The notes under the pieces were generated by a model. The model did no database searches. It had not been told where the DNA came from and was given only the letters and a program-made list of their open reading frames with translations. A DNA stretch of 64,000 bases, taken from positions 1-64,000 of the forward strand of contig CAJQUW010007772.1 in assembly GCA_907163375.1 (NCBI GenBank), in the 5' to 3' direction. This DNA is from Prostheceraeus crozeri (taxonomy: Eukaryota; Platyhelminthes; Polycladida; Euryleptidae). Numbering within the stretch: position 1 is the stretch's first letter; each line of letters opens with the position of its first letter. The translations under genes were made by a program, and so were the position numbers. Positions 3,037-24,812 of the stretch are shown piece by piece.

Positions 3037-3135
3037 ATGATGGAATATCCTAGCTGCTCCAATAATTCAAATTCTACTTACTTTCCTATGTCCAAGTCAC
3101 CTCTTATCTAGATACTTGCACTAATTGGAGTTACA
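3037..3135 (+). pseudogene. GPCR copy 1, 5' fragment (interrupted)
   Basis: This is the start of a receptor gene matching the first 33 codons of copies 2-5 (N-terminal tail and beginning of TM1). Codon 25, a Leu codon (TTG) in the open copies, is TAG at 3109-3111. The match stops at 3135, where the inserted element begins, and resumes at 19220 after it. The last six bases (3130-3135, gttaca) are repeated at 19220-19225. The fragment shows that a real member of the array was the insertion target. Whether the stop arose before or after the insertion cannot be decided from this copy alone. Confidence 0.9.
3130..3135. repeat. 6-bp target-site duplication, left (gttaca)
   Basis: The sequence gttaca immediately precedes the left inverted repeat and occurs again directly after the right one (19220-19225). 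In the uninterrupted paralogs gttaca is present once at this place. A 6-bp duplication is the known target-site length of Polinton/Maverick integration. Confidence 0.93.
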
Positions 3136-4275
3136 AGTAGTAATCACATCCCAGACGGAAGTGCAAAATGTGCAACGATGAGTCGTCATGCTGACTCAGC
3201 CCCCCCTCTGGAAGGAAGGATGTGTTGGGAGGAATGGGTCCGAGAGGAAGAAACTGTTTCCTACCCCCCCCCCTTTGGAAGGAAGGAGTTTTCCAGCAAG
3301 GGTAGGAATCTAGGAAGGAAGGCGACAAGGGTAGTAATGTGGGAAGGATAGAGTGAGAAAAGGTAGGTTTTCGTCGTTTTGGGATGAGAAAGTTCGGAAC
3401 TCGGCATGAAGGAGGTCTCGGATGGAAAATTGGAGTTCAGATTCGGAGTCTACGTGAAATTTTGGGTGAGGAAGGAAGGAAGGAGGAGTTTTCCTGTGAG
3501 GCAAGGGGTGGAATCTCCGAAAACGGCAGAGTTAGAAAAAGGCGGGTTTTGGATGGTTTGGGATGAGAAAGGCCGTTTTTCGGCATGAAGGAGTGCTCGG
3601 ATGGGGAAACGGAGGGCAGATTCGGAGTCTACGTGAATTTTTGGGCTAGGAAGGCTGTTTCCAGCGAAATCGGAGAGAAAAAATTTTGAGGACGTCCCCC
3701 CCTCCTGTCAGACTTCCAACTTTGGTTCCAGAGATCGTAGAAAGTCGTGCAATAGCTAATTTGAAAGCTAATAGTGAGAAAAATGCAGTGGAAAGCTCAG
3801 TTTGGCCCTTTTTTCCTGGGTTTAGAGAGGAAAATGGCAGGATAACGCTAGAGTTAGAAAAGGCAGGTTTTCATCGTTCTGGGATGAGAAAGTCCATTTT
3901 TCGACATGAAGAAGGCCTCGGATGGGAAAACGGAGGGCAAATTCGGACATTTTGGCTAATTTTGGGTCAAGGAATTTGTTTCCAGCTTAATCGGAGAGAA
4001 AAAGTTTTGAGCCCCCCTCGGCAGCGATCTTCCAACTTTGGTTCCAGAGATCGTAGAAAGTTGTACAATAGCTCATTTGAAAGCTAAGAGCGAAACAAAT
4101 TCAGTGGAAGACACGTCTAGTTCATGTCTGCCTTTATCTAGATGTGAGACACCATTGAAAATTTTGGAAATTGGTGAAAAAACGACAGAGTTAGACTTCT
4201 TATGAAAATGTCTCTAGCGGATGAATGAAGCCTCGGAGGGGAAAACAGAGACCAGATTTGGAATCAGCGTGACAT
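3136..4275 (+). repeat. Left terminal inverted repeat (~1.14 kb)
   Basis: This arm matches the reverse complement of 18061-19219 almost throughout. Divergence increases near the inner end, around 4195-4275. Its interior holds degenerate direct repeats that begin with a gttagaaaaggc-like motif near 3355, 3532, 3852 and 4188, and a second shared block (tccaactttggttccagag) near 3716 and 4030. A TGACTCA motif lies at 3192-3198. Short open frames in this arm recur in the other arm and look like strand-biased repeat DNA, not genes. Confidence 0.92.
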
Positions 4276-4326
4276 CTTACACCTGAATGTCATTCATGCT
4301 ATGTCTCCGAAGTGATAGGGAGAAAG

Positions 4327-4749
4327 ATGACAGATGCAGTAGAGTTTACGAATGAATTTTGTTCACTACGTTTTCATCGACAAAGTTTTCATGGTGTGAT
4401 TAGGGACTACATCATCTCCTTTCATCATGAAAAGGCAGACTTAGAATTTGCTATCGCTAAAGGTTACTTCGTTTTCCAACAGCTCATGGACAGTTTGATG
4501 AATAAAGATGTGAAAGGTCGATTAGTTGCAGAGATTGAATTTGAGAAAGTGACTGATGAACATGCAGGTGAACGTGTAGTGTTTCATTTTGCATCCTATT
4601 CTGCAGAGACGATACATGATCCCAAAGATTTCTATCAGCGACACATGGCGAAAATTGCATCTCGACTAGATTCATTTCAAGAGCATGGATCCAACTTACT
4701 CTTATGTCGCATAAAACACATTCATATTCAACTCAATGTGCTAAACTAG
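4327..4749 (+). CDS. Stand-alone relative of the PolB N-terminal domain (A)
   Basis: This is a 140-codon frame just inside the left inverted repeat, starting at the ATG at 4327. I know no named function. It aligns by eye with the proteins at 16113-16565 and 6837-7262 and with the polymerase region around 14090-13660. Shared features are a SFxGxIxDY-like segment near the N-terminus, a central KGRLVA-type strand, an F.SY block, a Y.RHM.KI.SRLD helix and a final hydrophobic I.HI.I strand. In the polymerase this module sits between zinc fingers and the exonuclease. Free copies might act as polymerase accessory or decoy subunits, which is inference. The frame is intact. A TGAGTCA motif lies just downstream at 4781. 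Confidence 0.7.
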   Translation: MTDAVEFTNEFCSLRFHRQSFHGVIRDYIISFHHEKADLEFAIAKGYFVFQQLMDSLMNKDVKGRLVAEIEFEKVTDEHAGERVVFHFASYSAETIHDPKDFYQRHMAKIASRLDSFQEHGSNLLLCRIKHIHIQLNVLN

Positions 4750-4887
4750 ATTTCACTCCAAGATTTGGGAAAAGCAATCATGAGTCACTCGTCCGCGTGC
4801 CTCCTTTTCTCTGCCGCAACGAAGTCAGGGGAGAAACGGAGGTCTCTGATTGGCTCTCTTAGTGTCAAATGTGGATTCGCAGGAGAC

Positions 4888-4894
4888 TATAAAA
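4888..4894 (+). promoter_or_regulatory. TATA box (TATAAAA)
   Basis: TATAAAA stands in a GC-richer stretch 129 bp before the short frame at 5023. A good splice-donor-like GTGAGTG begins at 5014 and an acceptor-like tttcgttacag ends at 5379, so a transcript starting near 4920 could be spliced into the larger gene at 5386. Confidence 0.55.
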
Positions 4895-5022
4895 GCAGAC
4901 GTCTCCCCATTTTCTCTTCATTTCATTCTCTTGACGTGGAAAGCGTGTGTGACTTGCTGAAGCCATTCTCCCCTCTCAACTTTGTCTGATCAATCCTGTT
5001 TGCAAATTTACAAGTGAGTGTC

Positions 5023-5262
5023 ATGACAGTCTGGCCTAAACCTTACCAGCATTTTAGAAGAGAGACGCAGGAGAGTGTGTGGCCGATGATTGTACAAGCT
5101 TATTTTGTTGAACCATCACCACCACCACCACCACCGCCTCCACCACCTAGACGCTTTACCTTTAAGTCTTTTAGGGAATTGAAACTCAATTCGGGTCCTA
5201 AGTCCAAGACATTTAATTTACTGGACGATTACGAAGACTTAGACTTTGGTGATAAGCTTTAA
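5023..5262 (+). CDS. Small proline-rich protein, function unknown
   Basis: A 79-codon frame starts at the ATG at 5023. The N-terminal half holds WPKPYQHF and a run of ten prolines (5128-5148 region), followed by a basic segment (RRFTFKSFRELK) and an acidic tail (LLDDYEDLDFGD). I do not recognise a family. It lies between the TATA box at 4888 and the 5341 gene, and could also lie inside an intron if the candidate donor at 5014 and acceptor at 5379 are used. The composition, a structured start and an acidic end, is more protein-like than random sequence, but the support is modest. Confidence 0.42.
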   Translation: MTVWPKPYQHFRRETQESVWPMIVQAYFVEPSPPPPPPPPPPRRFTFKSFRELKLNSGPKSKTFNLLDDYEDLDFGDKL

Positions 5263-5340
5263 ATCATGTGAACGCACCAAAAGGTCTTTTTAAGGGCCAC
5301 CTCATATGTCACTGCTAAGCTAAGGATTTTCTTTTCTCTG

Positions 5341-6069
5341 ATGATCATGAATGTACTTAGTGGTATTCTTTCGTTACAGACTGCCATGGCCATGAATCCT
5401 ACTCCAACTGCAGCATCACTGAATCCTCAACATCTCGAGCTGTGGAATCTGAAAATTGAAAAGGTAATTCACGGCCATCCTACCTACAAAAAGCAAGTGC
5501 GCTACAACGGTGTTCGACTCTATCTTCAAACGCCGGCGGTATACTTACCAAAAGTATATACGCAAGTAAATCGTTGCGGTCAAAACCTGAGTATACCTAT
5601 TGATGATTGGTTGCGTAAACAGCTTGACATTTTAGAAGACGTTGTGAGGCAAAAGGCTTTTATTCCTACTGAACTATTACAGTTGTGGCCAGAAAAGAAA
5701 ACTTCTTATTATAAACCATTGTATCGCGGCACTCGCTGCTATATTTTACAAAGCAAGTATTGTAAAGTCACTTCAGGAGTGACACTTGAACAGTCAGTTG
5801 AAACAGAATTGTAATCGCTAGGTGCAGGCTTTTATTCCTTTCATATTGAGGTGCCTGTTGTTCATGTGGGACCTCATCAATCTGACGGTAATTTGATTTC
5901 TCTCAATTTGCGCATTGCTGAAATTCATCATCAACCTGAGTTAACAGGACTTGATCACATTGAGAAAGTCATTGATTCTTGTATCAAAGAGTGTCAAGAA
6001 CCTGTCAACAAACCTAAACGTCGTCGCGCATCAAAGAAAGATGGTGCTACCACCAACGAGAAATCTTAA
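5341..6069 (+). pseudogene. ~240-codon unknown protein, in-frame stop; paralog of 7753-8451
   Basis: Two open segments (5341-5814 and 5815-6069) lie in the same frame, separated only by TAA at 5812-5814. The start is ATG 5341 or the better-context ATG at 5386, which follows an acceptor-like site. The protein aligns with the gene at 7753-8451: a strand-rich block (VRLYLQTPAVYLPK), a SIPIDDWLRKQ helix, a central cysteine segment and a C-terminal LGAGFYSFHIEV block just after the stop, then a basic tail (KPKRRRASKK). The paralog has LGKGFYSFKIKI at the equivalent place, which proves that the sequence after the stop belonged to the gene. The function is unknown. The beta-rich core with a basic tail would suit nucleic-acid binding, but that is a guess. 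Confidence 0.7.
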
Positions 6070-6159
6070 GTATTGTAATCAGTTAGTATGTAGTGAATGT
6101 GGAATTAAGTCCTTTTGATATTGTAGGTTGTCATCTTCATAGACAGTGAGGGAACACCC

Positions 6160-6633
6160 ATGCAGGAAATGAGTGCTATTGCAATGAGAGAAAGCGAACA
6201 AACTGTTGTTAGTGTATATCATAGATTTGCCTACTGTCCTCCACACAAAGACGAATGGTCACGACGTCATGTGCATGGACTTGATCCTTCTATTTTGATT
6301 CATATTGGATTTGTAAATGAAACGTATTTGATAAGTGATTTCAAACGGTGGCTGTCAGGTTTTCATATTGTTAAAATATTAGGAAATGATTCTGAACGAG
6401 AAGCAACAACACTTCAGTTGCACATTGATAATTTATATTTACCATGTTTGGTAGATCGTGTAAGACAAGACTATCATTTGCATTGTGATCAAAAGAAGTT
6501 TAGAGATGAAATGATTTTTGATATGGCTGTATGTTTCGGTGAGAGACATCACCTTTACAGACCACCATCCCATTGTAACACTAGAAATAAAGCCACCTAC
6601 ATTGCAAAAACTCTCTTCACGCTGGTATTGTAG
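6160..6633 (+). CDS. Putative nuclease-like auxiliary protein
   Basis: An intact 157-codon frame starts at ATG 6160. The layout (EMSAIAM near the start, a YCPPHKDEW segment, HVHGLDPS, a HIVKILG strand, NLYLPCLVDRV, and late Cys/His residues) recalls a family of uncharacterised proteins common in invertebrate genomes. I associate that family with an RNase H-like fold, from memory and weakly. No catalytic set can be assigned with confidence. It lies between the first gene of the 240-codon pair and a PolB-N-like gene. A polyadenylation-like aataaa follows at 6773. A profile comparison is needed before any function is stated. Confidence 0.5.
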   Translation: MQEMSAIAMRESEQTVVSVYHRFAYCPPHKDEWSRRHVHGLDPSILIHIGFVNETYLISDFKRWLSGFHIVKILGNDSEREATTLQLHIDNLYLPCLVDRVRQDYHLHCDQKKFRDEMIFDMAVCFGERHHLYRPPSHCNTRNKATYIAKTLFTLVL

Positions 6634-6836
6634 TCTCTATGACGTTTATGAACTGCATCTATATTATTGTCACCAGCATGGCTATATGTAAAACATGTTT
6701 TACTCCTTGTGAATGAGTGATGATCTTTTCATGAAGTGTAATCTGTATTTGTGAATTTTGACTGATGTTGAATAAACTTACAGTGGAGCATGATTGTTAT
6801 TTATGTTTTATTCATAGTGGAAGTCATTGAAGCAAT

Positions 6837-7262
6837 ATGAAATCTATAGTCACATCGTTTATGATGGCGCATCGCACCTTGAGTAACCACATGTGTCATT
6901 TGACTCTTGATCAACAAGGATTCGATGGATTTTTACAACATCGGAAACTTACATTTAAAATGAAGATGAATGATATGAAAGTAGTGGTAACTGAAAGCCT
7001 TCCTCTCTTCAAAAGATTGATGGAGAGTTTACAACCTCAAAATGTAAAGGGTAGACTCGTTGCTTATATAGAGTTGAAAGATATACAAAAACTACTTCGT
7101 TTTGGATCCTATTGCAAAGAATGGATTATTCTTAGTGATCAATTTTATTTACGACATATGGAGAAAATTGTGGAGAGAATAGAAGACGATAGAAGGAAAT
7201 GCGTGCGTTGTCAAACATATCATGATTCAACTCAGTGTGTTTACATCCACGACTTTGTTTGA
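6837..7262 (+). CDS. Stand-alone relative of the PolB N-terminal domain (B)
   Basis: A 141-codon intact frame starts at ATG 6837 and is followed by the polyadenylation signal aataaa at 7287. It shares the pattern of the 4327 and 16113 genes: LTLDQQGFDGFL, a KGRLVAYIEL strand, a FGSY block and FYLRHMEKIVERIED. Its C-terminus is different: CVRCQTYHDSTQC looks like a small zinc-binding knuckle absent from the other two. The function is unknown. The relation to the polymerase module suggests a replication-associated role, by inference. It is the most divergent of the three free copies. Confidence 0.68.
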   Translation: MKSIVTSFMMAHRTLSNHMCHLTLDQQGFDGFLQHRKLTFKMKMNDMKVVVTESLPLFKRLMESLQPQNVKGRLVAYIELKDIQKLLRFGSYCKEWIILSDQFYLRHMEKIVERIEDDRRKCVRCQTYHDSTQCVYIHDFV

Positions 7263-7339
7263 TGGTCGACATGTTGTGTAGGTGCAATAAAGATTTCTTT
7301 TCACTGAGTATTTTGTAATGGAGTATAGAGCAACATAAG

Positions 7340-7590
7340 TCATTGCGCTTTGTAAGATAAATGAATGCGTCTTTGTTCGAGAAAAGGGGCGTGCCACAAA
7401 ATGAGTCACTGCGCTTTGTGCATTACTATCGGGCTCTTTGTTAGATAAATGAATGCGTCTTTGTTCGAGAAAAAGGGGGTTTCACAGCCCCTTAAGTCAT
7501 TGCGCTCTGTGCATTACTATCAGGCTCTTTGTTAGATAAATGAATGCGTCTTTGTTCGAGAAAAGGGGTGTGTCACTAAAGTCTTTGTGA
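7340..7590 (+). repeat. Three ~90-bp tandem repeats upstream of a TATA box
   Basis: The core gataaatgaatgcgtctttg starts at 7356, 7444 and 7535 (spacing 88 and 91 bp). Each core is accompanied by a gtcattgcgct-like motif and a gagaaaa-ggg motif. A TGAGTCA motif occurs at 7402-7408. The array ends about 20-50 bp before the TATA box at 7608, which fits a tandem enhancer of the kind seen in DNA viruses (inference). Confidence 0.8.
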
Positions 7591-7607
7591 GGACTAGAAC
7601 GACTTTG

Positions 7608-7617
7608 TATATAAAAA
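7608..7617 (+). promoter_or_regulatory. TATA box (TATATAAAAA)
   Basis: A strong TATA sequence followed by GGGAAGG stands directly downstream of the 90-bp repeats and 145 bp before the in-frame ATG at 7753. The TATAAAA-GGGAAG context is shared with the box at 8752. Confidence 0.65.
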
Positions 7618-7730
7618 GGGAAGGTCTCCACCCCCGCAGTCAAAAGTTCGCGTGAGATAACTCTTTGTCACGTAACAAAGACAGGGAAAACTTGAAAAGG
7701 GAAACGCATGTGATTGGAGCTAGGTCTGGT

Positions 7731-7737
7731 TATAAAA
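7731..7737 (+). promoter_or_regulatory. Second TATA-like box (TATAAAA)
   Basis: TATAAAA lies 22 bp before the in-frame ATG at 7753 and 31 bp before the next ATG at 7762. It could set a very short leader, or be a chance match inside a leader started from the 7608 box. Confidence 0.35.
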
Positions 7738-7752
7738 CGGACGACTGAGCTC

Positions 7753-8451
7753 ATGGCAATCATGTCCGTCCTTGCGCTGACCATGCAGTTGCTCGAAGCC
7801 ATCAACTCCTGTGCTCTCGCACTAGGTACACTGAACTCCCTTACTTTAGCATCGCGTAAAAATGCTTTCAATCAAAAGATAACTCATCATGGAGAAACCG
7901 TGACCATAAAAACTCCAAGTCATCGGATGGCTTATCTGAAGGTTATGTCAACAAAGTATGGACTCGCTGTGTGTGTACCGTTAGACTATTGGACACGGTT
8001 ACAATTTAATAGTCTTGAAACATTCCTGAAAGAAAATCTCACCATTCCCAAAGAAATTGTTCGACACAATGGGAAGTGACCACAAGTTCCCAACATGGAA
8101 AGAAGATACATGTATGTTCATATGGATAGACATTGTCTCATCATTCATGAAAAGGAGGGCAGCGAATTCGACTTACTCAATTGCAAACCTCTCCCCATTT
8201 TGGGAAAAGGATTCTACTCCTTCAAAATTAAAATTCAAACCACCTACTTGGGTCCGCGCAAGGATGGAAGGTTGTTTACGTTGAATCCCTATCTCGTGTC
8301 CATAACCTTTAAAAATGATGTCCATGTTGATGATGATCAACAACAGCAACACTCTCCACACACTGAGAACGCACCATCGGTCTTTATGAGACCAAGGCCT
8401 AACGGCCACCGTATCAAGAAAGAAAATGTACACTCACCATGCCACACATGA
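7753..8451 (+). pseudogene. ~230-codon unknown protein, in-frame stop; paralog of 5341-6069
   Basis: The frame is open from ATG 7753 to 8451 except for TGA at 8077-8079. The part before the stop has a strand block (ETVTIKTPSHRM), a CVPLDYWTRLQ helix and IPKEIV. The part after has RYMYVHMDRH, LGKGFYSFKIKI and a His/Gln-rich, basic tail. The same order of blocks occurs at 5341-6069, whose stop is at a different codon, so each stop is probably an independent mutation. An AAG TGA CCA context is compatible with CGA to TGA decay. The role is unknown. Both paralogs flank the same two small genes, suggesting duplication within the element. Confidence 0.7.
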
Positions 8452-8505
8452 ACATGACTCTCTCTTTCTTTCTTAGGCATGCCATTCTTCACTCAGGTTT
8501 AAATC

Positions 8506-8718
8506 ATGTGGAAATTATCAGCATGCCTCTATGTCTCATGGAAACGTCAGTGTGTTACATTTCATGATACGAAACGTCAACTTCAGATAACTCTAGAACG
8601 CTTTCAACTACAAAGGCTACATCGCGCTATCCTATCCAACTCTTGCCGTGTCATCAACGTAGGAGACGGCATTGTATTTATTCGCATTCAAGAGATGATT
8701 CTACATATTGATCACTGA
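8506..8718 (+). CDS. Short hypothetical protein
   Basis: A 70-codon frame starts at ATG 8506, just after an acceptor-like tctttctttcttag ending at 8476. The sequence contains CVTFHDTKRQLQITLERF and alternating hydrophobic residues toward the end (GIVFIRIQEMI), suggestive of beta strands. I do not recognise a family. It sits between the 7753 gene and the TBP-like gene and could be a downstream exon or a small separate gene. The evidence is weak beyond position and composition. Confidence 0.35.
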   Translation: MWKLSACLYVSWKRQCVTFHDTKRQLQITLERFQLQRLHRAILSNSCRVINVGDGIVFIRIQEMILHIDH

Positions 8719-8751
8719 TATATCGTGATTCCAAAACCCTCATGGGAAAAG

Positions 8752-8758
8752 TATAAAA
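8752..8758 (+). promoter_or_regulatory. TATA box of the TBP-like gene (TATAAAA)
   Basis: TATAAAAGGGAAG begins 43 bp before the ATG at 8795, close enough to start transcription just ahead of it. If the encoded TBP-like protein binds TATA boxes, the gene could regulate itself (inference). Confidence 0.65.
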
Positions 8759-8794
8759 GGGAAGTTCACTCAACCCTCATGTCATTTGTGAATC

Positions 8795-9334
8795 ATGCTC
8801 GCCATCCGCATCATCAACGCCATGCGCGAAATGAATCTCAGAAGAGACATCGATTTAGAACAGTTGCATACCCATCTTCCCGATTCAGTATATCATCGCG
8901 GTCGTCCACAGATGTTGGTCATTCGCATGAGCAACGGTCGAAATCTTCAAATCCTTCTCTGCGGAAAAATCCGAGTCCTAGGAAACCTTTCTCATTTCGT
9001 GATGCAGTCGATATGTTACAAAGTTGTCAAGAAAATCCGAACACTCATGCCTCATCTACGCCTCAGTCCCCTGACATTGAAGAATATAGTAGTGGCTGTT
9101 CAACTGAAGATGTTAGTGAATCTAGCAAACAGTAAAGCCAGTAGTCATTGTATATTTTGTGAAACTGAACTCTTTCCTGCTGCTCTGATTCGGAAATGGC
9201 ATCCTGTACATATTGCAGTGTTTCACAACGGACATTGTATCATGACTGGTTTACGTGATATCAGTAAAGTAGCTGACATTGTTGAATCTCTAATGCGTTA
9301 TCTGTATGAGTCACAGTTAATAGAATCGTGTTAA
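8795..9334 (+). CDS. TATA-binding-protein-like factor
   Basis: This intact 179-codon frame has the size and two-repeat layout of the TBP core. Repeat 1 (about residues 3-83) has IINAMREMNL, DIDLEQL, LVIRM and CGKIRVLG. Repeat 2 (about 92-174) has LTLKNIVVAVQL, ETELFPAALIRK, IAVFHNGHCIMTG and a final helix. The ELFP...IRK and the glycine-turn TG signatures match the family in order and spacing. In TBP a Phe pair in each repeat wedges into the DNA minor groove. Both are kept in repeat 2 (F127, F143), while repeat 1 has P38 and leucines at those places. Its role would be promoter recognition with host RNA polymerase II. Its own TATA box is 43 bp upstream. Alternatively it could be a TBP-fold protein that has lost DNA bending. 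Diverged sequence argues against a recent copy of a host TBP gene. Confidence 0.82.
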   Translation: MLAIRIINAMREMNLRRDIDLEQLHTHLPDSVYHRGRPQMLVIRMSNGRNLQILLCGKIRVLGNLSHFVMQSICYKVVKKIRTLMPHLRLSPLTLKNIVVAVQLKMLVNLANSKASSHCIFCETELFPAALIRKWHPVHIAVFHNGHCIMTGLRDISKVADIVESLMRYLYESQLIESC

Positions 9335-9353
9335 TCACATGATGTGTTTTGAA

Positions 9354-9570
9354 TGAGTCATCGCAATGAACTAAGGCCCACACATGTATCGGTGAAAAGG
9401 TCATCAACAAGGTTCATCGCTTTATGATGAGTCAGCGCTATTTATAGACATGAAATGATGCCCACACGCGTGTCGGTGAAAAGGTTGAACAAGACTGATT
9501 AGAGTCTTATCTAACTGACTGGTGCTTTACCACTTCATGAGTCAGAGCTATTTATAGACATAAGGTAGCA
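9354..9570 (+). repeat. Direct repeats with TGAGTCA motifs
   Basis: Two near-identical segments (atgagtcagcgctatttata near 9426 and a one-base variant near 9536) alternate with two copies of a cccacac-tgt-cggtgaaaagg segment (near 9376 and 9461). TGAGTCA occurs at 9354, 9428 and 9538. These follow the TBP-like gene and have no coding potential. Confidence 0.7.
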
Positions 9571-9639
9571 AAGTGGTTGATGTTTCCTAAGCCGAAGAAA
9601 TTGTCATGATGTTACATTCGTTGGTGATAACTTACAAAC

Positions 9640-10250
9640 TCTAACATGGTTTTGACTTTATTTTATACTTTACCTATCTTGCAAACAGTGAAATGCTTGT
9701 CACTTTATTTTATACTTCACCTATCTTGCAAACTCTGAAATGATTCTAACATTAATTCAAACTTTACAATCATCAACTTCATTTCTAACTTTACAAACGT
9801 CAACTTTATTTCTAACTTTACAAACAGTGAAGTGATTCTGACTTCATTTATATTTCACCTACCTTACAAACAGTGACATGGTTATAACTTTATTTCTAAC
9901 TTTACAATCACCAACTTTATTTCTAACTTTACAAACGTCAACTTTATTTCTAACTTAACAAACAGTGAAATGATTCTGACTTCATCTATATTTCACCTAT
10001 CTTACAAACAGTGACATCGTTATAACTTTATTTCTAACTTTACAAACATCAACCTTATTTCTAACTTTACAAACAGTGAAATGATTCTGACTTCATTTAT
10101 ATTTCACCTATCTTACAAACAGCGACATGGTTATCACTTTATTTCTAACTTTACGAACGACAACTTTATTTCTAACTTCTCAAACAGTGAAAAGATTCTG
10201 ATTTCATTTATAATTCACCAATCTTACAAACAGTGACATGCTTATGACAT
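9640..10250 (+). repeat. AT-rich minisatellite between convergent gene blocks
   Basis: Units of about 110-130 bp, made of sub-units such as aactttatttctaactttac and ttacaaacagtgacatg, recur with small changes over roughly 600 bp. The array lies where the + strand gene block ends and the minus-strand polymerase gene ends. It may serve as a transcription end or spacer region. 10250-10605 holds no gene I can support. Confidence 0.8.
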
Positions 10251-10605
10251 TATTACCAAGTCAGTCCCCCCTATTTGAACCGCAACTTTATATCAAAAGA
10301 AAAACGAGACAGTCTGTACATGATATGTTATTGAATGAAAGACATTTCATCATAGTCACACATAGTTAATACGATACACGGAGAAAACGAAGTCACTCAT
10401 CTGCAGGGAGAAAACAAAGTCACTGATGTGTCGGTAAATGTACAGGGACAAAAGAAAGTCAGCAAAAGCACTGGACACCCCATCGATGATATGCTGTGAT
10501 CAGGAGTTGGACGCATGTTGCAAGGCACTCACTCACAACACCCCATAGAAAACGCCATGGAGTGAAAAAGCAAAACATCAACCACAACAGAGAGGAAGCA
10601 TTCAT

Positions 10606-13600
10606 CATCAGACATCGCCGGACGGAGGAGGAGAAAGTTTCTGTCTCTTGGGTGGAGGTAGATGAGTGTCTGGATGGCCGTACGGTAATGAGTGGTTAGG
10701 ACTCATCCAGCATCGCTTGTTGAGAGACCTCGTTTCCTAAACGTCGTTCTTCTGACTTGATGCGACTGTGATTTTAAAATGGTCATTTCTACTTTTTTAA
10801 TTCTAAGTGAATCTAAGGCATCTTGATAGTCCCTATGTGTCATTTTTCTAGCGATTGACTTCCAGATGCCTTTCGCCCATTTAATAGAAAGCTCTGAGGA
10901 TTTTAGCTTCATGGAGTACATCTTGGGACGGAGCAAGATCATCTCCTCTATCTGTTTGCCGGCACACTCATCCTTGAAGCAGCCAAGCTTCGCTTTATTT
11001 GAGGTAGAGTAAAGCGGATGGTCAGTGAGATAGTTGGAACTATCAAACTTGGGTGCGAAGTATTTTAAAATGTCTTCCTGCTTGACTTGGCTAGTGGTTG
11101 TCAAAGCTAGGAAGAAGCTGTCTGTATCGCCTCCTACTAATTCCACATGTTGGATCAATGGACAAGTTTTAAAGGTGTGGTAAAACAACTTGTGCATTTC
11201 TAACTTGGAGTGATCCAAGACAGCTTGACCGACATAAATGGGCTTGCAAAGTTCTACTTTGGATTTTAACATTTTGAAACCAGTGATGTCTTCGGAAATG
11301 ACATCATGGTGACAAAACAGCGGTGAGCGACATAATTTGATACTCGTTTCCGGATCAGTCACGATACGATAGTCCATGCGCTTTCTTACATCCTCCATGG
11401 TTTTACCAAAGAGGGCATTATTCTTAAATTTAAAGAAGTCCTTTTCGAAAGGATTCTTGGATTCAGCCCGTTTCTTACTATTAAATTCTATATACGGTTT
11501 TAGAAAGGGCTTCTGCCTAAACTGGATAGCGCGATGGACTTTGTCAAGTTGCATCCCCATACCTAGATAGAATTTGAGGATGGAACAGTGCACGATATAA
11601 TGCTGCTTGTTCAATTGGGTGAGCAACAACTTTCTCGTGGGTTTATATTTTAAGTCATTTTCCGCCTCATATTTCTTATTGTGTTCTTCCATAAAGGGAG
11701 AGAACATATCTGGACTGACTATGCCAGATTCGGGTGCGAGAGGAAAATCAACTGTCCTATTCTTAATAAATTCTGGATAGATGAGGTAGACTTCAAATAA
11801 AAAACCTATGTCGGCCTCACCTCCCAGTGCCATGATGTGTGCTGGATTGGAGAAGTGTTCAATGTCATGGGGCTTTACACATTGGAAGTCAGACTGTGGC
11901 AAAGGCTTGGATAATGCACTCCCATACAAATTATTTTGGTCTATGTACATTAAATGTGTGGTCGATCTTATGTCTTGGGTGCTGTTGACAACATGTTTGT
12001 TAACAAATGTTAAGCCTCCCCTAATACCACGTTCAAATAACGTGTACATTTCTGCATCTTGCAGTAAATGAATGCTCTCTTTCGTCATCTTGAAGGCTGA
12101 CTGATAGGACAGACCCGGCAGACTAACAAAATGGACGGGGTCTAAGGCGTCCTGTTCTAATGTGACTTTCCTAAAAGTCTCAAACACGTCAGCCAACAGA
12201 TAGACGTCTAATTTTATGTAGGCAAGCATGTAGTCACCAAAAGTGCGACACCTAAATTCTAACCATGCTTGCTCTGCATGCCTATAGTCATCCAGCGAAC
12301 AGTCCTCACCCGTCAAATCATTTTTAAATTTATCGATGGACGGAAGGGATGTTTCTTTCAATTTCTCCATTGAACTAAAATAACTATAAGGAAACACCCC
12401 TTTTCGTCGCATCAGACTGTCACTTATGTTAGGATAGTCTTTCTTTAAATGTTGAGTGAGGGGAAGTGTTTCTAAATTATTAGCCAATGCGGCTAAGGAC
12501 GAAAACATAAATTGAAAACTATCTAGAAACTTTATGTCATAGAAGACCGACTTCCCCTCCTTCGTCTTATCTACTTGTACTTTGGTAGTGATGCACATAA
12601 ATTTTTCCTTACTTTGTGCAATCACTTTGGATGACCAGGATTTCATTTTACCGAATCCATGGCGAATGATGATGTGAGCATCATAACATTTAAAGTTATG
12701 AAAGATGACGGGGAGCGTTCGCCGTTTGAGCCTAACTTTCATATTGCATTTACTGCATAAGGCGGACCTAAATTTACCACTGAGATGGCAATGGTCCCCC
12801 ACTTTCTTATGTCGCTGATCATCAAAGGATGAAAAGCAGCGGGGACATTCCGTGGTCCTATCAAATTTAAATTTATCGGCTTCTGTGAAGCACATGGGTT
12901 TCCTAGTCAGCTCCGTTTCATACCGTTGATGAAAACGGGCTTACCTATCTAAAAAGTTGAGGAAGTTTTCAACACTCCTCGCCTTGCCACACATGCATTT
13001 TATTTTGATTCCTATAATATGGATGCCAAACTTCATAACAGGCAATGGCTGCTGGCTCATGACTTAGGTCTTCTTGTTCAATGTAACATTCAATGTCCGC
13101 ACAGATGGTACATATGGGACTGAGCTCATTGCCGTTTTCCTCATACCTATAAAATTTATCTTTGGGCATGACTTCCATTTGAAGTTTACCCCAAGAGCAC
13201 CACTCGTAATGCTCTTCAAAATATGGTTTAGATGTGAAACGTCGTGCGCAGCGATCACAGTAATAAAAATTATCCCTATAGGTTGCTTGATGATGGTATA
13301 ACGTTGAAAGTTTAGGAATGCCACGATAATGCCATTCTGGGTGGTTGTCGCTATAGACTAGGGGAAGATTGACAACCCGGTCGAAGTAACTTTGGCGATT
13401 ATTATACTTAACGCCCTTCAAACCTTTTTCCCAGAGATGGACGACGATCTTAATTTTATTGAGTTTTTAAAATTGGGCGATGCCTTTGAAATCTAATTTG
13501 TTGACATCTAACCCGTCAAACTTAAGCTCAGCTTCCCATTCATGATATTTAGTGACTCGTTCACGATTTATACCTATATCATTATAGTGAAGAATGGAGA

Positions 13601-14629
13601 AGACGGCATACTTGAAATACTGGGACTGACACTTTACATTGATAACAGCCCTTTTGCTAGCCAGTGCTTTGGGGAAGGTGAAACAACCACTCCCTTGTAA
13701 ATTTTCTAAAAGATTGATTTTGATGTCTACTTTCTCTATCCCATCAAAGACCAGACCGCTGTCTCTTTCATTAAATTTATTTAAGTTGCTAACGAGATAG
13801 GTCGCATGTCTCTCTATCCATTCCCTTACATCACCTATCAGATCAGCAGCACATGAGGCTATCCTAATGGTCACAGTGGACTCTACTTCTCCCGTGCTAC
13901 TGTCTACCTTATTGAAACGAGCAGTGAGATGGAACATGCCTTTGAGCAAAAATCTATCTCAGCTCGCCAACATTTGATGAATCAAACCTATATTATTCAT
14001 CAAGAAAGGATGAATATCTTGTACAGGTTCAGAGATTTCTAACTCATAGTCGCGAACGAGTCTCTCAAGGGAAAACTTGCTCAGCCTTAGAGTGACGTTG
14101 TTGTCAGTGTAAAGCTCAGTGGAATGTGTGTGACAGAGTGTGTGCGAAGAGAGAACAAACTCTGTAGGAAAGGTCTTTCGACACGAAGAACAGGAAAAGC
14201 CGACGTGCGATGAAGGATGCTTCCTACCTGATGACGTTGGTGGTTGCCTCACACTGCCACAGGAACCGCCTTCGATGTGGACTCGCAAGTTTGTGTTGTT
14301 GTAGAACGTGCGTCCACAACCTTCACACTTGGGTCGTTGAGGGATCGCTCGGCGCTTTCCTCCTCTGAAGGCATGGCCAGCGGTGTGACGTCTCAAACTG
14401 TAGGCTGAGGTGAAGACCCTGTCACACCGCTGGCATCAAAAGTCCTTCTCCTCTTTGACTTCAATCTCCTCTCCCACTATCTCCAACTCCTGCTCCTCCA
14501 GCAATCTCTCCATCGACTGAACGGAGAGGAGAGGGAGTTCGGCCGCTGCTGCAGGTGGTGGTGGTGGTGATGCTGGGATGATGATGGGGCGGGAGGGAAC
14601 GTCGCCGTCCAGGAGGTAGGCCGCCAGAT
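10606..14629 (-). pseudogene. polB: Protein-primed family-B DNA polymerase, broken
   Basis: The gene replicates linear DNA with a protein primer in Polintons, adenoviruses and bidnaviruses. From the N-terminus: three C2H2-like zinc fingers (14435-14160), the module also found as free genes here (about 14095-13650), a further zinc-finger-like segment and exonuclease motif I (ADIECYIE, near 13100). In the long open part (12895-10703, 730 codons) are an HNH-like CPRC...DHCH...CN cluster, exo II (FHNFKCYDAH, 65-74), exo III (YIKLDVYLLAD, 226-236), palm motif A (YIDQNNLYG, 317-325), motif B (KFKNNALFGKT, 489-499), motif C (GGDTDS, 588-593) and KWAKGI (672-677). Breaks are TGA 14436-14438, TGA 13959-13961, TAA 13467-13469, a frameshift near 12970, TAA 12941-12943 and a frameshift near 10718. 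The catalytic residues remain, so inactivation looks recent. An acceptor-like site (tttctcaacag) precedes 14629, implying upstream exons. Confidence 0.92.
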
Positions 14630-14715
14630 CTGTTGAGAAAAAGAGAAAAGAGATTAGTAACATGATCATAATTTCAAGTTTGAAGTCTTATCCCCCTTTT
14701 CCCAATCACGGTTAC

Positions 14716-15195
14716 TTTCCATCTAATGCATTGATTTCCGGCAACACCGATGGTTGAGGAGGAGGCAGGAGTGGTACACGACCCGAGAGCGGCAGGATCC
14801 TGGGATTTGGTGTCAGAGGGACGTGGTGACGAGGATCAGGGACTGGTGCAGGGAGCGGAGCAGGCGGTGGAGGTGGGGCGATGACGATGCCCGAGAGAGG
14901 AGTCGGACCTTGATCGGAGGTAGATGGGCGGGAAGGTAGGGCCGGAAATTCAGCATTGAATCTCCGCCTCGCTGCTTCTTCCCACTTCTTGATCTTACCA
15001 TATCTGTAGAGAGGATAGGGAGATTAGAGGTTGCGGAGAGAACAATGATAGAGAGTAAGCTGTACGGATACAGAAATGCTAAAACATGACATTCCAGCTC
15101 TCAGTTCTGATAGGTGAGGATACTTACACTTGCCAAGCCGCTCGTAGGCTTCCCCGATTGTTCCTTGGGGGACGGATTCTCCATTACGAATACAC
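14716..15195 (-). other. Candidate upstream exons of the polymerase gene
   Basis: On the minus strand, 15003-14716 is bounded by an acceptor-like ctctctacag and a donor-like GTAACC, and reads as a basic start (GKIKKWEEAARRRF) followed by a proline-rich stretch. A shorter candidate exon ends at about 15130 with donor GTGTAAGT and contains GTIGEAYERLGK. The phase between these two exons fits, but the phase into the exon at 14629 does not, so an exon is missing, a frameshift has occurred, or the last junction is wrong. 15196-15600 shows nothing recognisable. Confidence 0.4.
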
Positions 15196-15599
15196 TCATG
15201 CATTGAAAAAGAATGACAGGAAAGATAAGCAGAGTTAAAATTTGGATTCTGCTTAAACGTGAATAAAATAAGGGAGATTCTTGATTTTAATTAGGATGTC
15301 TACCCTAATGATGTTAGTAATAGAGTAAGTCAACCTTGATACAAATACTTACATTGCTCAGCAGCTTTACAATACTACATACTTAGATACTTTACAATAC
15401 TTACATACTTTACAATACTCAGCAGCAATACGGTGATTTTCAACTTTGTTGAATTCGATCTTGTTAGGATGTAGTTGATTAATTGAATCACTGAAAAATT
15501 GCTTCAATCACTGAAAAGGAAAGATGAGAATCGTTTCATTTGCCTAGTCAACGTTTATCATTGGAACAATCATTGAAGTGACATCTAATGAATTACATT

Positions 15600-15945
15600 T
15601 CACTCTACTCCATATCATAAAGACTAACCTTTGTCGAATGGCTGAAGTACTCTGACCTGACGAGAGAAAGCGTCACCTTGAGTATGAAGTCGAACGCCCA
15701 ACATGAGCAACGGCTCAGAGGTTTTGGTCTAACAAACGACGAACAACCCGTGCAACGCAATCCCTCTACGGCAGTACCCGCCGTCCCGAAGGAACGCTCG
15801 AGCAAAGGAGGTATTACAGCGATGATATGTTTTATGAGTAGAAGTGAATCTCTTGACAGCAAGAGACTATTCAACTTGATAGCAAGTCAAAACAACCTGA
15901 TAGCAGGAGCTCACCGACACTCACCTTGTGAAAGATAAATGTGAA
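15600..15945. repeat. Degenerate repeat unit near the right end of the element (1)
   Basis: A motif set around 15700-15800 (cccaacatgagcaac..., gccgtcccgaaggaacgc) is echoed at about 17355-17440, and more weakly near 17075. Open frames on both strands here are short and unlike known proteins. It lies between the polymerase 5' end and the 16113 gene, so it may hold divergent promoters. Confidence 0.4.
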
Positions 15946-16112
15946 TAGCAGAGCTGGGGCGCTGCTTTTTGAAGGATTTTCCTAAGCAATGAATGGATGA
16001 GACCTCTCGTCCAATCACAGACGAGCTAGAGTTCCCGATGTGTGCACGCACATTTGTAACGCGTTATTGAAATCGTCTTAGGCAAAAATGATGTTTAGCA
16101 ATAGACTCAACC

Positions 16113-16565
16113 ATGGCACTTGAAGTCAATACATTCAAACATGATGATTGCATGATTCGTTTTCATCAAGAGAGCTTCGGAGGCTTAATACAAGATTACA
16201 TCCTTGAGTTTCAAAGGGAGGAGACGGAATTGGACGCATGTTTAGACTATACACGAGAAATATTTACGGAGTTGATATCTTATTTCAAAGACAGTATCAT
16301 CAAGGCTCACTTAATTGCACATGTCAATGACACTCATTTTCCACAAGGTGAAGCAGCGGAAAGTGTTGACATACAATTTCGTTCCTACGGACAAGAATAT
16401 GTTACTGATGCTTCTGAGATTTATACACGACATCTGCAGAAGATTATTTCTCGGATGGATGACTTTCATGGTTACGCCAATCATTTGCTTCTGAATAAAA
16501 TAAACCATATTGTCATTGCTATTAGTAAAGTGGGTTTCAATGATGTTAAATCAAAGACCAAATAA
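16113..16565 (+). CDS. Stand-alone relative of the PolB N-terminal domain (C)
   Basis: A 150-codon intact frame starts at ATG 16113 (ccatgg context). The TAA stop at 16563 overlaps an aataaa polyadenylation signal. It is the closest match to the 4327 gene: CMIRFHQESFGGLIQDYI versus CSLRFHRQSFHGVIRDYI, then FRSYGQEY, IYTRHLQKIISRMDDFHGYA and a final INHIVIAI strand. The zinc fingers and catalytic parts of the polymerase are absent. Two similar genes near opposite ends of the element suggest selection for this free module or repeated capture from the polymerase. No function is established. Confidence 0.72.
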   Translation: MALEVNTFKHDDCMIRFHQESFGGLIQDYILEFQREETELDACLDYTREIFTELISYFKDSIIKAHLIAHVNDTHFPQGEAAESVDIQFRSYGQEYVTDASEIYTRHLQKIISRMDDFHGYANHLLLNKINHIVIAISKVGFNDVKSKTK

Positions 16566-18060
16566 AGTACTTTTCATGACACTTGTGTTGTGCTAAACTT
16601 TCTAATGCTGTTGTGAGTTCAGTCAGTTACAAAACTTCAATGATCAAACTTCACTTTCACAAACGTGTGTCACGGTAAAACTATTTGACTATACTAAACT
16701 TTGCTATTGCAAACCATGATGCACTTTCTGGCTACACTCACAAGAGCTTGTTCACTAGCGAAGAGAGAAATGAGCTTGTGGCTACGTGTGGCGCATGAAT
16801 GCCTCCCATTTCATCCCTTCATCATTTCGTCTCCGTGATAGAGACAGTTCTAAAAAGAACTTATGGTTCATTCTTGCATGTGTGGCCAACTATCGGGAGA
16901 CAAGTGCAATGGAGATTTTATGAGGTAACCTATAGCAGATAGCTAAATGTCGCCCTGGCGGTCAGAGTACAAAGTTGAGACAAAAGGCAACCACTTGGAA
17001 ACATGACGCAGGGAAGTTTCACAAGGATTACCATTGCCCACGTCCCGTGCAGTACTCATCGCTACGGACTTCGTCGCTGTCTCGAAAGAACGCCCACCAA
17101 CAGGAAGTATGACACCGAAAATCTCCGTGACTTGCACCGTCAATGACTTGATAGCCAGACATGAAAACCGGTGGAATTATTTAGAAGAGGAAACATCCCA
17201 AGTCGTTGCTTTGATCAGCTTGACAGCAAGCCGTGATTCACCAGCGTTTTGCAATGGAGATGTTTAGAGGCCACCCATGACAAGATAGGTAAGACTCAAC
17301 CAATTGGTGTTCAAAGTGCTACGTTGAGAACTGTGTCAAGTGCCCAACATGAGTTGCCCCAGCGGTTTCGGTCAAAATATGACACACTCCCTTGCCACAC
17401 TTATCACTACGGCATCATCCGCCGTCCCGAAGGAACACCCTGTCAGTGGAATATTGCAGCAAAACTCTCCGTGTCATGCTCGCTTTCAGTGAAAAGCCGC
17501 TTGGTTCATGTAAAGACCGGCTCAGACATAATTACAAATCCTTTAGTTGACTTGAACAGGGTCGAAAACCCCAGAAAACCTCCAAAAATAATTAATTTAA
17601 ATTTTTCAGCATTTATCACTACTTATGAAATTTTATAAGTAGTCTGTCAGTATACATCTGATCAATAGCGATCGAATCTTTTTGAATCAAGTCAAAAGGA
17701 CTTGTAGAAGCAAAGTTACAAGCCTTAAAAGTTTTGGAGTCTTTTATGGCCTGGAGACGAAGGCCATCTCCTGCCTAACCTCTAAGTCTGACACCTTAAC
17801 TGATATCTGCCATGAAATTTTCTAAGTCGGTTTCCTGCGGAAACCCGGTTTTGGAGATTTCCAATGCTATCATCAGAGCTCCGGAGTTCATCTACCCCAA
17901 CTCAGTCGGGAGGAGAACTGATTTCCACAAGTAGAGTTTCCACTTATATAGTTTGTGGCGATCAGCTGATGACGTAATATTCATCATCCAAAAACTTTAA
18001 ACACGTCTATCTCCGGTTCTAGTGTATCGATGTACTTGAAACTCGCCCTCTAGATGCAGA
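16566..18060. other. Right-end non-coding region of the element, degenerate repeats
   Basis: There is no supportable gene. Segments at about 16930-17240 and 17270-17540 share degenerate motifs with each other and with 15690-15900 (gaaggaac-c, ctccgtg, cttgatagc-ag). 17640-18060 is unique sequence leading into the right inverted repeat. These could be remains of one ancient unit copied three times, or regulatory DNA. Confidence 0.4.
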
Positions 18061-19219
18061 ATGGCACGCTGATTCCAAATCTGGTCTCTGTTTTTCCATC
18101 CAAGGCTTTGTTCATCCGCTAGAGCCATTTTTGTGAAAATTCTAACTCTGTCGTTTTTTCACCAATTTCCAAAATTTTCAATGGTGTCTCACATCTAGAT
18201 AAAGGCAGACATGAACTAGACGTGTCTTCCACTGAATTTGTTTCGCTCTTAGCTTTCAAATGAGCTATTGTACAACTTTCTACGATCTCTGGAACCAAAG
18301 TTGGAAGATCGCTGCCGAAGGGGGCTCAAAACTTTTTCTCTCCGATTAAGCTGGAAACAAATTCCTTGACCCAAAATTGGCCAAAATGTCCGAATTTGCC
18401 CTCCGTTTTCCCATCCGAGGCCTTCTTCATGTCAAAAAAAGGACTTTCTCATCCCAGAACGATGAAAACCTGCCTTTTCTAACTCTAGCGTTATCCTGCC
18501 ATTTTCCTCTCTAAACCCAGGAAAAAAGGGCCAAACTGAGCTTTCCACTGCATTTTTCTCACTATTAGCTTTCAAATTAGCTATTGCACGACTTTCTACG
18601 ATCTCTGGAACCAAAGTTGGAAGTCTGACAGGAGGGGGGGCGTCCTCAAAATTTTTTCTCTCCGATTCCGCTGGAAACAGCCTTCCTAACCCAAAAATTC
18701 ACGTAGACTCCGAATCTGCCCTCCGTTTCCCCATCCGAGCACTCCTTCATGCCGAAAAACGGCCTTTCTCATCCCAAAACATCCAAAACCCGCCTTTTTC
18801 TAACTCTGCCGTTTTCGGAGATTCCACCCCTTGCCTCACAGGAAAACTCCTCCTTCCTTCCTTCCTCACCCAAAATTTCACGTAGACTCCGAATCTGAAC
18901 TCCAATTTTCCATCCGAGACCTCCTTCATGCCGAGTTCCGACCTTTCTCATCCCAAAACGACGAAAACCTACCTTTTCTCACTCTATCCTTCCCACATTA
19001 CTACCCTTGTCGCCTTCCTTCCTAGATTCCTACCCTTGCTGGAAAACTCCTTCCTTCCAGAGGGGGGGTAGGGAACAGCTTCTTCTTCTCGGACCCATTC
19101 CTCCCAACACATCCTTCACCCTCTCCCTTCTTCCTTCCTTCCAGAGGGGTGGGGGCTGAGTCAGCATGACGACTCATCGTTGCACATTTTGCACTTCCGT
19201 CTGGGATGTGATTACTACT
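18061..19219 (-). repeat. Right terminal inverted repeat (~1.16 kb)
   Basis: This is the reverse complement of 3136-4275 with few differences over the outer kilobase. The outer end is attactact-3', followed at once by the duplicated gttaca. A TGAGTCA motif at 19157-19163 mirrors the one in the left arm. Confidence 0.92.
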
Positions 19220-19225
19220 GTTACA
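19220..19225. repeat. 6-bp target-site duplication, right (gttaca)
   Basis: This is identical to 3130-3135 and directly abuts the end of the right inverted repeat. The receptor reading frame continues from here. Confidence 0.93.
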
Positions 19226-19971
19226 CTCAATGCGCTGGCGATCACTCTCCTGAGGGAAGTTCGTACCAATAATTCTGTAATACGGAGAAGTTTCAAAATA
19301 CAAACATTATTTCTGTCAGCAAATGAAGTGGTACTGAGCATCTTCTTCGTAATCATTCAAGTGATACAACAGGGCACATTCAGCAATCTATCACAAGTAC
19401 ATTCTGTAAGACTAGCACTGCAAATAGGAATATATCTCTATGCGGCGCTTGTGACATCGAGAAATTGGATGATCTGCGTGATTTCCTTCCGAAGGTTTGT
19501 AGTTATATTCCGGCCGAATTATTCATCGGAGGACAGACATGGTTGGTTTCGCTTGTGGACGATGAGTCTGATGAATGTGGTTGTCATTATCATTTCATTT
19601 ATAATCTCTGTTCCGATAATATTCACAACAAAATCAATCACTTGCTTCTCCCAAAATCAGCCTCCGTTGTATCACGTAGTATTGATGCTGCAAATCCGTG
19701 GTGAGAACACTGGCAAGCTAGGAGCCGTTCCCATAACCCTGAGAGATCTAGTCCCAGTCATTCAAGTCATCATCTTCACCATGCTAAGCAATATTCGATT
19801 GCGAAAGTTGAAGCGTGAAGTCAGTCATGAATCATTGCATTACGAACAAGCGTTCAAAGCACTTTTAATTGTCTGCATCTTTTAATTTTTTTAATGTTTG
19901 CACTTTTAATTGTAGATGTGAGAAATGTTCAGGAAAATCAAAACAGTGAACAAGTTGAGCCGAAATATTGA
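19220..19971 (+). pseudogene. GPCR copy 1, 3' part (TM1-TM6 remnant)
   Basis: The receptor sequence resumes exactly where it was interrupted at 3135. Matches to copies 2-5 run through TM1-TM5 to the start of TM6 (near 19883). There about 215 bp covering the rest of TM6, TM7 and part of the tail are missing. The homology returns at about 19912 with the C-terminal tail and a TGA at 19969-19971. A short filler (gcacttttaattgt, repeated) sits at the deletion junction. With the codon-25 stop, the 16-kb insertion and this deletion, the gene is dead. Confidence 0.88.
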
Positions 19972-24400: not shown

Positions 24401-24812
24401 GACTTTGAGAGATTGCGTTACCCAGTGAGATCAATTTAAAGCAAAAACGAGAAGAGCTGGTCGATCGACATATCATCAGAACAAAGCTGCAATAAAGATA
24501 AAACCATTAAATACATCAATTGAGAGCTTGTCAAAGCTAAAAGAACTATTGTCAAGTGAGTCTAAAACCACAGAAATTGAATACATGCTAAAAACAGTAC
24601 AATAGGAACTGATTTGCATGTACAATTGCGCCTAAAACTGCGGAATTCAATGTCAAATGCTAAAACAATAATGGAGATGCAGTCCGCTGTTTGATGGCGG
24701 TTGTTAAGATTGATCAATAACACTAAAGCAAGAACATGAATGATTTAATTAAACAATTGCGCTTACTGATGACTTAGAACGGCGAAGAGTTTCTTTACCA
24801 TATTTCGGTAAA
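21451..24812. other. Non-coding spacer with dispersed repeats
   Basis: No gene is recognised. 22109-22275 is a copy of 1826-1990. 22530-22780 recurs in inverted orientation at about 59990-60270, and a part of it near 45870-46010 and 57870-58010, so it belongs to a dispersed family. 23130-24800 is AT-rich, with only short frames of no clear identity apart from the hairpin listed separately. Confidence 0.5.
24036..24146. repeat. Imperfect inverted repeat (MITE-like hairpin, ~110 bp)
   Basis: The arm gtcggatagagcactcg plus tttggatgac near 24036 pairs imperfectly with catcatccaaac plus gtactctatcc near 24110-24140. The enclosed loop is about 50 bp. It looks like a small foldback element. No target duplication is clear. 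Confidence 0.45.

Follow-up and report, generated by a model that had tools for sequence, protein, structure and literature searches.

A TATA-binding-protein-like gene carried by a Polinton-type element of Prostheceraeus crozeri

The element and its insertion site

The window, by which we mean the whole stretch of 64,000 nt of Prostheceraeus crozeri DNA that was analyzed, contains an element of 16,084 bases (positions 3136-19219) with a gene for a TATA-binding-protein (TBP)-like protein. The features of the element and its borders are listed in order along the window, with the strand where one applies and the basis of the assignment in brackets.

3130..3135, target-site duplication GTTACA, left (single GTTACA in 4/4 empty paralogues)
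3136..4284, left terminal inverted repeat, begins AGT (repeat comparison with the right end)
4327..4749, plus strand, ORF A, paralogue of 6837-7262, of 16113-16565 and of part of the PolB N-terminal region
5341..6069, plus strand, ORF B, single in-frame stop at 5812
6160..6633, plus strand, ORF C, 187 aa in most other copies
6837..7262, plus strand, ORF D, paralogue of ORF A
7753..8451, plus strand, ORF E, paralogue of ORF B, in-frame stop at 8077
8503..9135, plus strand, ORF G, in another frame than the TBP gene, stop at 8716 in the window (open in 19/20 copies)
8752..8759, plus strand, TATA box TATAAAAG, 43 nt upstream of the TBP start codon
8782..8787, plus strand, initiator-like TCATTT, starting 13 nt upstream of the ATG at a distance of 30 nt from the first TATA base
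8795..9334, plus strand, TBP-like gene, 179 aa, two repeats (ORF, Pfam, PDB phmmer, predicted fold)
9637..10296, tandem repeats between the TBP and PolB genes
10703..14435, minus strand, PolB-type gene with C2H2 fingers and an endonuclease VII-like finger
16113..16565, plus strand, third ORF A paralogue
18052..19219, right terminal inverted repeat, finishes ACT (repeat comparison with the left end)
19220..19225, target-site duplication GTTACA, right (single GTTACA in 4/4 empty paralogues)
19220..19885, plus strand, 3' part of a GPCR gene split by the element (empty paralogues)

The empty site is represented by four GPCR paralogues further along the window, each with one GTTACA and no insert. 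The terminal repeats differ by 12 substitutions per 1053 aligned bases and the nearest paralogue of the element flanks is 94% identical, so that the insertion is young relative to the GPCR array. By its AGT...ACT termini, its 6-bp duplication and the empty site, the window element is of Polinton type, in agreement with the original prediction, and the location of the TBP gene within it is directly demonstrated. Scans of 24 pieces of the window element for integrase, protease, ATPase and capsid families gave no match, and neither did nine ORFs taken from the copies L069, L105 and L106 or one window piece scanned with them. The window element is possibly served by an integrase in trans.

The gene at 10703..14435 is broken by stops at 13959, 13467 and 12969 and by a change of frame. 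Pfam matched its endonuclease VII finger, while the Pfam polymerase profiles matched neither this gene nor the ORFs scanned in other copies; from this finger and the motifs DxxNLYG, KNxxFGK and GDTDS we take it to be a putative protein-primed DNA polymerase B. A single-sequence model of a piece of it was unusable (pLDDT 31). The TBP frame had been described as intact among neighboring genes with stops, and ORFs B, E, G and the PolB gene are indeed broken, but ORF A and the ORF at 16113 are open as well.

Several further observations concern the element and its surroundings. The frames at 4327-4749, 6837-7262 and 16113-16565, together with 13467-13937 in the PolB N-terminal region, form a small protein family with no Pfam match over the cut-off. 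Near the right end of two copies we found ORFs of 397 aa (L105:1354-2544) and 332 aa (L106:3748-4743), probably coiled-coil, that were not found in the window element, which is shorter in that region. Nearly alike, intronless GPCR frames form a tandem array at 31715-32788, 37103-38179, 48982-50055 and 60545-61618; in the further GPCR copy that is split by the element (19220-19885), the frame also terminates early. An open frame of 309 aa at 25586-26515 is presumably a Tc1/mariner-like transposase, and the frames at 24753-25346, 40382-40843, 44354-44887 and 53281-53769 are taken to be parts of Penelope-like elements, on an assumed likeness to GIY-YIG endonuclease and reverse transcriptase.

The TBP-like gene and its contact residues

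The frame at 8795-9334 on the plus strand is open over 179 codons. The original prediction had read two TBP-type repeats in it and had proposed a profile search, a structure prediction and a phylogeny as checks. Pfam PF00352 (TBP) matched the frame in two stretches with an E-value of 7.2e-16 and 58.2 bits, well above the curated gathering cut-off of 22.9 bits. In a phmmer search against the PDB, TBPs were matched at best at 4.8e-7 over residues 4-172 of the window protein, and nine NCBIfam TBP models matched at 0.0034 or lower, each under its own cut-off. The window TBP is collinear with the TBPs of yeast, E. cuniculi and Sulfolobus across both repeats, with 24% identity to yeast TBP in the alignment. 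Judged by its sequence, the frame thus encodes a two-repeat TBP homologue, with the repeats in the predicted order.

An AlphaFold2 model of the window TBP (pLDDT 85.4, pTM 0.75) has the predicted two-repeat saddle, with an identical order of strands and helices in both halves. Because the input alignment consisted of TBPs (18 rows: the window protein, four viral-contig TBPs and thirteen archaeal TBPs), the saddle is no independent proof of the fold, and the sequence-based case for homology stands without the model. A Foldseek search placed Sulfolobus TBP (1mp9) first among PDB entries, with an E-value of 4.5e-12 and a TM-score of 0.76, and 44 of the 45 PDB chains at E ≤0.001, ranks 1-44, were TBP or TBP-containing entries. 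Among viral models, the named matches include TBPs of large DNA viruses; rank 1 carries no name.

Contact residues were compared with the numbering and sites given in excerpts of PMC7221094. The family of the window element is termed F1, and its counts refer to 55 other reads that represent 49 distinct copies; F2 and F3 are two sister families described below. The window copy keeps both central Asn residues, the repeat-2 Phe pair, Thr151 and the Glu pair E123/E125. N8, E123, E125, F127, F143 and T151 were each found in 55/55 of the other F1 reads, and N97 in 53/55. The alignment confirmed F127 and F143 at the positions of the DNA-wedging Phe pair of repeat 2, as proposed at the outset, and the Phe at C.L5.1 is conserved. 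E123 and E125 correspond to the TFIIB-contacting Glu residues C.L3.2 and C.L3.4 and are present in the window, F1, F2 and F3 rows; the ExELFP motif is invariant in six aligned rows from the three families.

Repeat 1 has departed further from the canonical pattern, and its Phe sites are occupied by P38 and L54 in the window copy. At the first site (yeast F99), Pro was found in all reads except one F2 read with Leu, and P38 is a trait of the F1 family (55/55 other reads). At the second site, N.L5.1 (yeast F116), the F2 and F3 rows have Phe, and so do 55/55 of the remaining F1 reads. L54 is therefore private to the window copy, the second repeat-1 Phe being kept in 49/49 other distinct copies. 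The description of a weaker repeat 1 with a proline and leucines thus stands for the window copy, but of its two altered Phe sites only P38 holds for the whole family. The repeat-1 Thr is replaced by Leu or Met in all three families. The set of four DNA-wedging Phe residues is incomplete throughout, with two of four in the window copy and three of four in the other F1 reads and in the F2 and F3 reads. We did not take these four residues as defining a TBP, since one TBPL1 site has Trp and viral TBPs vary (PMC7221094, in excerpt).

In the same excerpts of PMC7221094, E284R and E286R in human TBP lower transcription, and F116A in yeast TBP lowers DNA binding. From the kept contact residues we infer that the element TBP would bind both TATA DNA and TFIIB. 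With the first repeat-1 Phe replaced by Pro or Leu and the Thr by Leu or Met in all families, its binding may be weak or of another specificity. The window copy itself is probably past its prime, given its private loss at a wedging site and its broken neighbor genes.

Copies, sister families and selection

The host genome searched comprises 2.05 Gb in 14,165 contigs. With the window protein as query, the best 150 of 11,289 first-look candidates were the window itself and 149 places at 90-93% identity. The TBP frame was free of stops in 148 of these 150, a set biased to intact copies because it holds the best-scoring candidates. In all 20 copies that were fetched, the TBP gene was flanked by element sequence, on both sides in 19; over the 4 kb read to the right of the gene in copy L067, no element sequence was matched. 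The best ORF C copies were also compiled separately, and for 14 of the first 20 of these, one of the 150 TBP matches lies, by eye, about 2.5-2.7 kb downstream on the same strand. TBP is a regular cargo of this element. The 231 bases upstream of the TBP gene, used as a query, gave 40 places, four of them outside the 150-match set; among these four the TBP frame was open in two, interrupted by a stop in one and frameshifted in one. Intactness was dropped as a sign of selection, the upstream-flank copies being mixed (2/4 open) and the 148/150 coming from a top-scoring set, and the 540 nt remaining open is weak evidence.

Four places (L014, L015, L016 and L017; G000 C6222, C6234, C2494 and C381) contain inverted TBP pairs that are palindromes of the left part of the element. 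The palindrome centers differ among them. L014, L015 and L017 keep only the 3' part of PolB in the stretch read, L016 retains most of PolB, and all four resemble defective genomes of end-replicating DNAs.

With yeast TBP as query, the host TBP was found as two exon matches (79% and 86%), together with a probable TBPL1 (L109) of 40% identity that has Trp at the repeat-1 L5.1 site. At least 147 further TBP-like places had 24-26% identity; by eye, 142 of the 147 were stop-free and none was shared with the 150 window-protein matches. Four of them were read, of which two belong to family F2 (L110, L112) and two to family F3 (L111, L113). Identity between the TBP families is 43-55%.

Stretches of about 6 kb around one TBP of each sister family, L114 (F2) and L115 (F3), were examined. 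Both contain an rve integrase (E-values of 1.6e-11 in L114 and 1.5e-13 in L115), and that of L115 carries a chromodomain (1.5e-7). A Ulp1-like protease (Peptidase_C48) was matched in L115 at 8.4e-5, over the cut-off, and in L114 at 0.0053, under the cut-off. Integrase and protease are marks of Polintons, and the tie of the window family to virion-type Polintons runs through these genes in one stretch each of F2 and F3. The two stretches also share ORFs of 428 and 432 aa, 53% identical and with no profile match, which we presume to resemble a capsid gene.

A tree was built from 20 rows. All five mobile TBPs in it grouped as a single, long-branched clade (support 100/100), separate from the host TBP, four viral-contig TBPs and seven archaeal TBPs. 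The proposed phylogeny thus separates the mobile TBPs from the host TBP, but their sister and the root were not resolved, and long-branch attraction was flagged by the tree program. Viral contigs scanned with P0001, with PolB and with alignments of the mobile TBPs, the capsid-like proteins and the integrases gave no relative. A scan with an alignment headed by yeast TBP gave five viral contigs of 12.7-79.7 kb; the TBPs encoded there share 53-55% identity with yeast TBP, and matches of window-element pieces to the five loci were no better than E 0.26.

These data bear on whether the gene is a recently captured retrocopy of the host TBP or TBPL1 (TLF) that has no function for the element. The host does have a TBP gene and a probable TBPL1 that could have served as a source. 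Such a capture is nonetheless highly improbable, as the window protein is only 24% identical to yeast TBP, the five mobile rows lie in their fully supported, long-branched clade outside the host TBP, three mobile families exist, and the TBP frame shows purifying selection (see below). We therefore disfavored the retrocopy on the grounds of tree and divergence.

The first part of the TBP gene is shared with ORF G. In 19 of the 20 F1 copies fetched, ORF G has an open frame of 210-249 aa; it overlaps TBP codons 1 to 112-113 and so covers repeat 1 and roughly twenty residues at the beginning of repeat 2. The TBP start codon sits within ORF G. ORF G is recognizable in F2 and F3, at 35% between F1 and F3 over 210 columns. 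In the F2 stretch, at L114:2285-3160, a frame change of ORF G joins its upstream part to TBP in an open frame of 292 aa.

Selection on the TBP frame was estimated in two ways. Within F1, pN/pS was 0.22 among 42 distinct sequences besides the window and 0.33 between the window and the rest, values in which pN is lowered because the copies were ranked by protein similarity to the window; segregating sites at codon positions 1, 2 and 3 numbered 34, 28 and 49, respectively (p 0.04). The F2 pair L114/L110 was found via similarity to yeast TBP and so is free of this window-similarity bias. Here pN/pS was 0.30, with changes at 35.6 of 121.7 synonymous and 37.4 of 421.3 non-synonymous sites (Fisher test on floored counts, p 1.6e-7). 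Between families, TBP pN/pS was 0.52-0.59, with synonymous sites near saturation. The substitution pattern indicates that the TBP frame is under purifying selection.

The overlap also permits a comparison of the two frames on the same DNA. In the F1 overlap region, pN/pS was 0.17-0.27 in the TBP frame vs 1.4-2.1 in the G frame, and in the F2 pair 0.25 vs 0.72. Downstream of the overlap, the F1 TBP frame had a pN/pS of 0.41-0.50, and in the F2 pair repeat 1 had 0.21 and repeat 2 had 0.42. Hence, the overlapped half of TBP is now the more constrained one in both families, and the overlap with ORF G may add constraint to it. The constraint of serving two genes may also have helped repeat 1 to drift from the canonical pattern, since the canonical ELFP and Phe-turn of repeat 2 lie outside the overlap.

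It is hardly credible at all that ORF G is the genuine gene and that the TBP frame arose by chance. The long open frame in 19/20 copies and its conservation from F1 to F3 would fit this reading, but selection in the overlap acts on the TBP frame and not comparably on the G frame, and a two-repeat homology to TBP is beyond accident. ORF G in place of TBP was rejected on this frame-specific selection and retained as a second likely gene; probably neither frame is spurious.

The TATA box that had been ascribed to the gene, TATAAAAG at 8752, lies 43 nt before the start codon of TBP. Across 50 distinct F1 copies (from 56 reads, six of them duplicated; window included), TATAAAAGG was exact in 41 and TCATTT was present in 49. 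In L114 (F2), TATAAAAGG lies 43 nt before the start codon with TCATTC at the 30-nt spacing, and in L115 (F3) it lies at 46 nt, where the initiator, here TCATTA, again keeps the 30-nt spacing. Two reads deviate, with TGTAAAAGG in L110 (F2) and TATAAAAAGG with one extra base in L111 (F3). The combined TATA and initiator motifs occur at two places in the window element and at one each in the L114 and L115 stretches. TCA[GT]T[CT] is an arthropod initiator motif. On these sequence grounds, the TATA box and initiator form a promoter-like module that is common to the three families.

Relation to known systems and proposed role

Compared with cellular TBPs (host, yeast and archaeal), the mobile TBP shares the predicted two-repeat saddle, the central Asn pair, the repeat-2 Phe pair and the TFIIB Glu pair. 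It differs in being only 14-27% identical to them, in having Pro for the first repeat-1 Phe and Leu or Met for the Thr, and in being encoded by an element present in hundreds of copies. It resembles TBPL1/TLF as a divergent TBP paralogue with an altered repeat 1. However, the host L109 has Trp at repeat-1 L5.1, as excerpts of PMC7221094 state for TBPL1, whereas the mobile families have Phe (Leu in the window), and the mobile families lie outside the host genes in the tree.

A TBP in a virus-type element is also known from large DNA viruses (Nucleocytoviricota and mirusviruses). TBPs are recorded in three plus four families of large dsDNA viruses (PMC11410667, in excerpt) and in 59% of mirusvirus genomes (PMC10132985, in excerpt). 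According to excerpts of PMC7221094, almost all viruses with a TBP have a TFIIB-like gene, with none found in poxviruses, and the C.L3.2 Glu is about 40% conserved in viral TBPs. Here, in contrast, both Glu residues are kept, the element measures 16 kb, and the scanned stretches gave no TFIIB. Endogenous viral elements of a green alga contain TBP genes, and the text portions of PMC10675990 that describe them report neither a polymerase nor a double-jelly-roll capsid gene found there. Host TBP acting with a viral activator is described in part of PMC4728583.

With Polintons/Mavericks and adintoviruses, the window element shares the AGT...ACT repeats and the 6-bp duplication, and its sister families share the rve integrase, in one case with a chromodomain, and the Ulp1-like protease. 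It differs from them in its TBP gene with the overlapping ORF G and in that no integrase, protease or capsid gene was detected in the window family. The original prediction knew of no TBP described as Polinton cargo, and a full-text search of open-licence papers likewise gave no report of a TBP in a Polinton; no TBP appears in the excerpts of PMC11071308 and PMC7016691, and the excerpt of PMC12220804 has a name match only. The virus-encoded TBPs known are those of large DNA viruses, in most cases together with a viral TFIIB.

The occurrence of TBP in related elements of one genome suggests that these elements steer the host transcription machinery to their own genes. We propose, with a probability of roughly 0.6, that the sequence encodes an element-private TBP that recruits host TFIIB and Pol II to element promoters. 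The gene would be transcribed from its own TATA and initiator promoter inside ORF G, and its product would bind TATA-type promoters of the element, probably including its own. The near-canonical repeat 2 would bend the promoter DNA, and the conserved E-x-E-L-F-P stirrup would recruit host TFIIB and RNA polymerase II. When expressed, the protein would give the element a promoter-recognition factor of its own. No TFIIB-family match was found among the ORFs scanned in the window element, its copies and the roughly 6 kb each of F2 and F3. Several findings count against a private TBP: the altered repeat 1 of all three families may bind weakly or with another specificity; repeat 2, which would be expected to matter most, is less constrained than the overlapped part; the promoter module was found at few places, so that a cognate promoter set is conjectural; and the window copy has lost the second repeat-1 Phe (L54).

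The same residues could be read as transcription interference, with a protein that occupies TATA boxes or TFIIB without initiation and so damps transcription of the host or of rival elements. A repeat 1 without the first wedging Phe and the Thr in all families, beside a kept TFIIB stirrup, would suit such a role, and a half-canonical protein could serve as a competitor. We consider it unlikely, as most copies retain the remaining DNA-contact residues and 55/55 other F1 reads have Phe at the second repeat-1 site. An architectural role in replication or packaging, by DNA bending at terminal repeats or origins, is less likely still. In its favor, a PolB-type gene is present in the element, and protein-primed elements start replication at their ends; the four palindromic derivatives also retain the TBP arm, a weak point as they were noticed through their TBP pairs. 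Yet the conserved TFIIB-contacting Glu pair would be useless in this role, and none of the TATA patterns scanned for lies inside the terminal repeats.

Returning to a private TBP that acts through the host machinery, a wider reading, to which we give even odds, is that in a lineage of animal Polintons such a TBP belongs to the core genes, is kept under selection and shares part of its DNA with a second conserved gene, and that these elements manage with no TFIIB or RNA polymerase of their own by using host TFIIB via the Glu pair. If so, no smaller DNA element with a general promoter-recognition factor of its own is known to us, and this one has reached hundreds of copies within a single genome. 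That a 16-kb element encodes a TBP which retains the contact to host TFIIB suggests that promoter recognition may be the only step a small element brings along, and opens to test whether such an element runs its own program with a private TBP. It also offers a compact natural TBP whose repeat 1 shares its DNA with another gene. The finding bears on the source of viral TBPs as well, because the origin of large eukaryotic DNA viruses is often sought near Polintons. In genome annotations, mobile TBPs may by the hundreds be mistaken for host genes.

Downstream of the TBP gene, TATA-type motifs were also seen on the minus strand at 9446, 9556, 9852, 10101 and 10212, partly in conserved sequence; these are possible antisense or PolB-side promoters.
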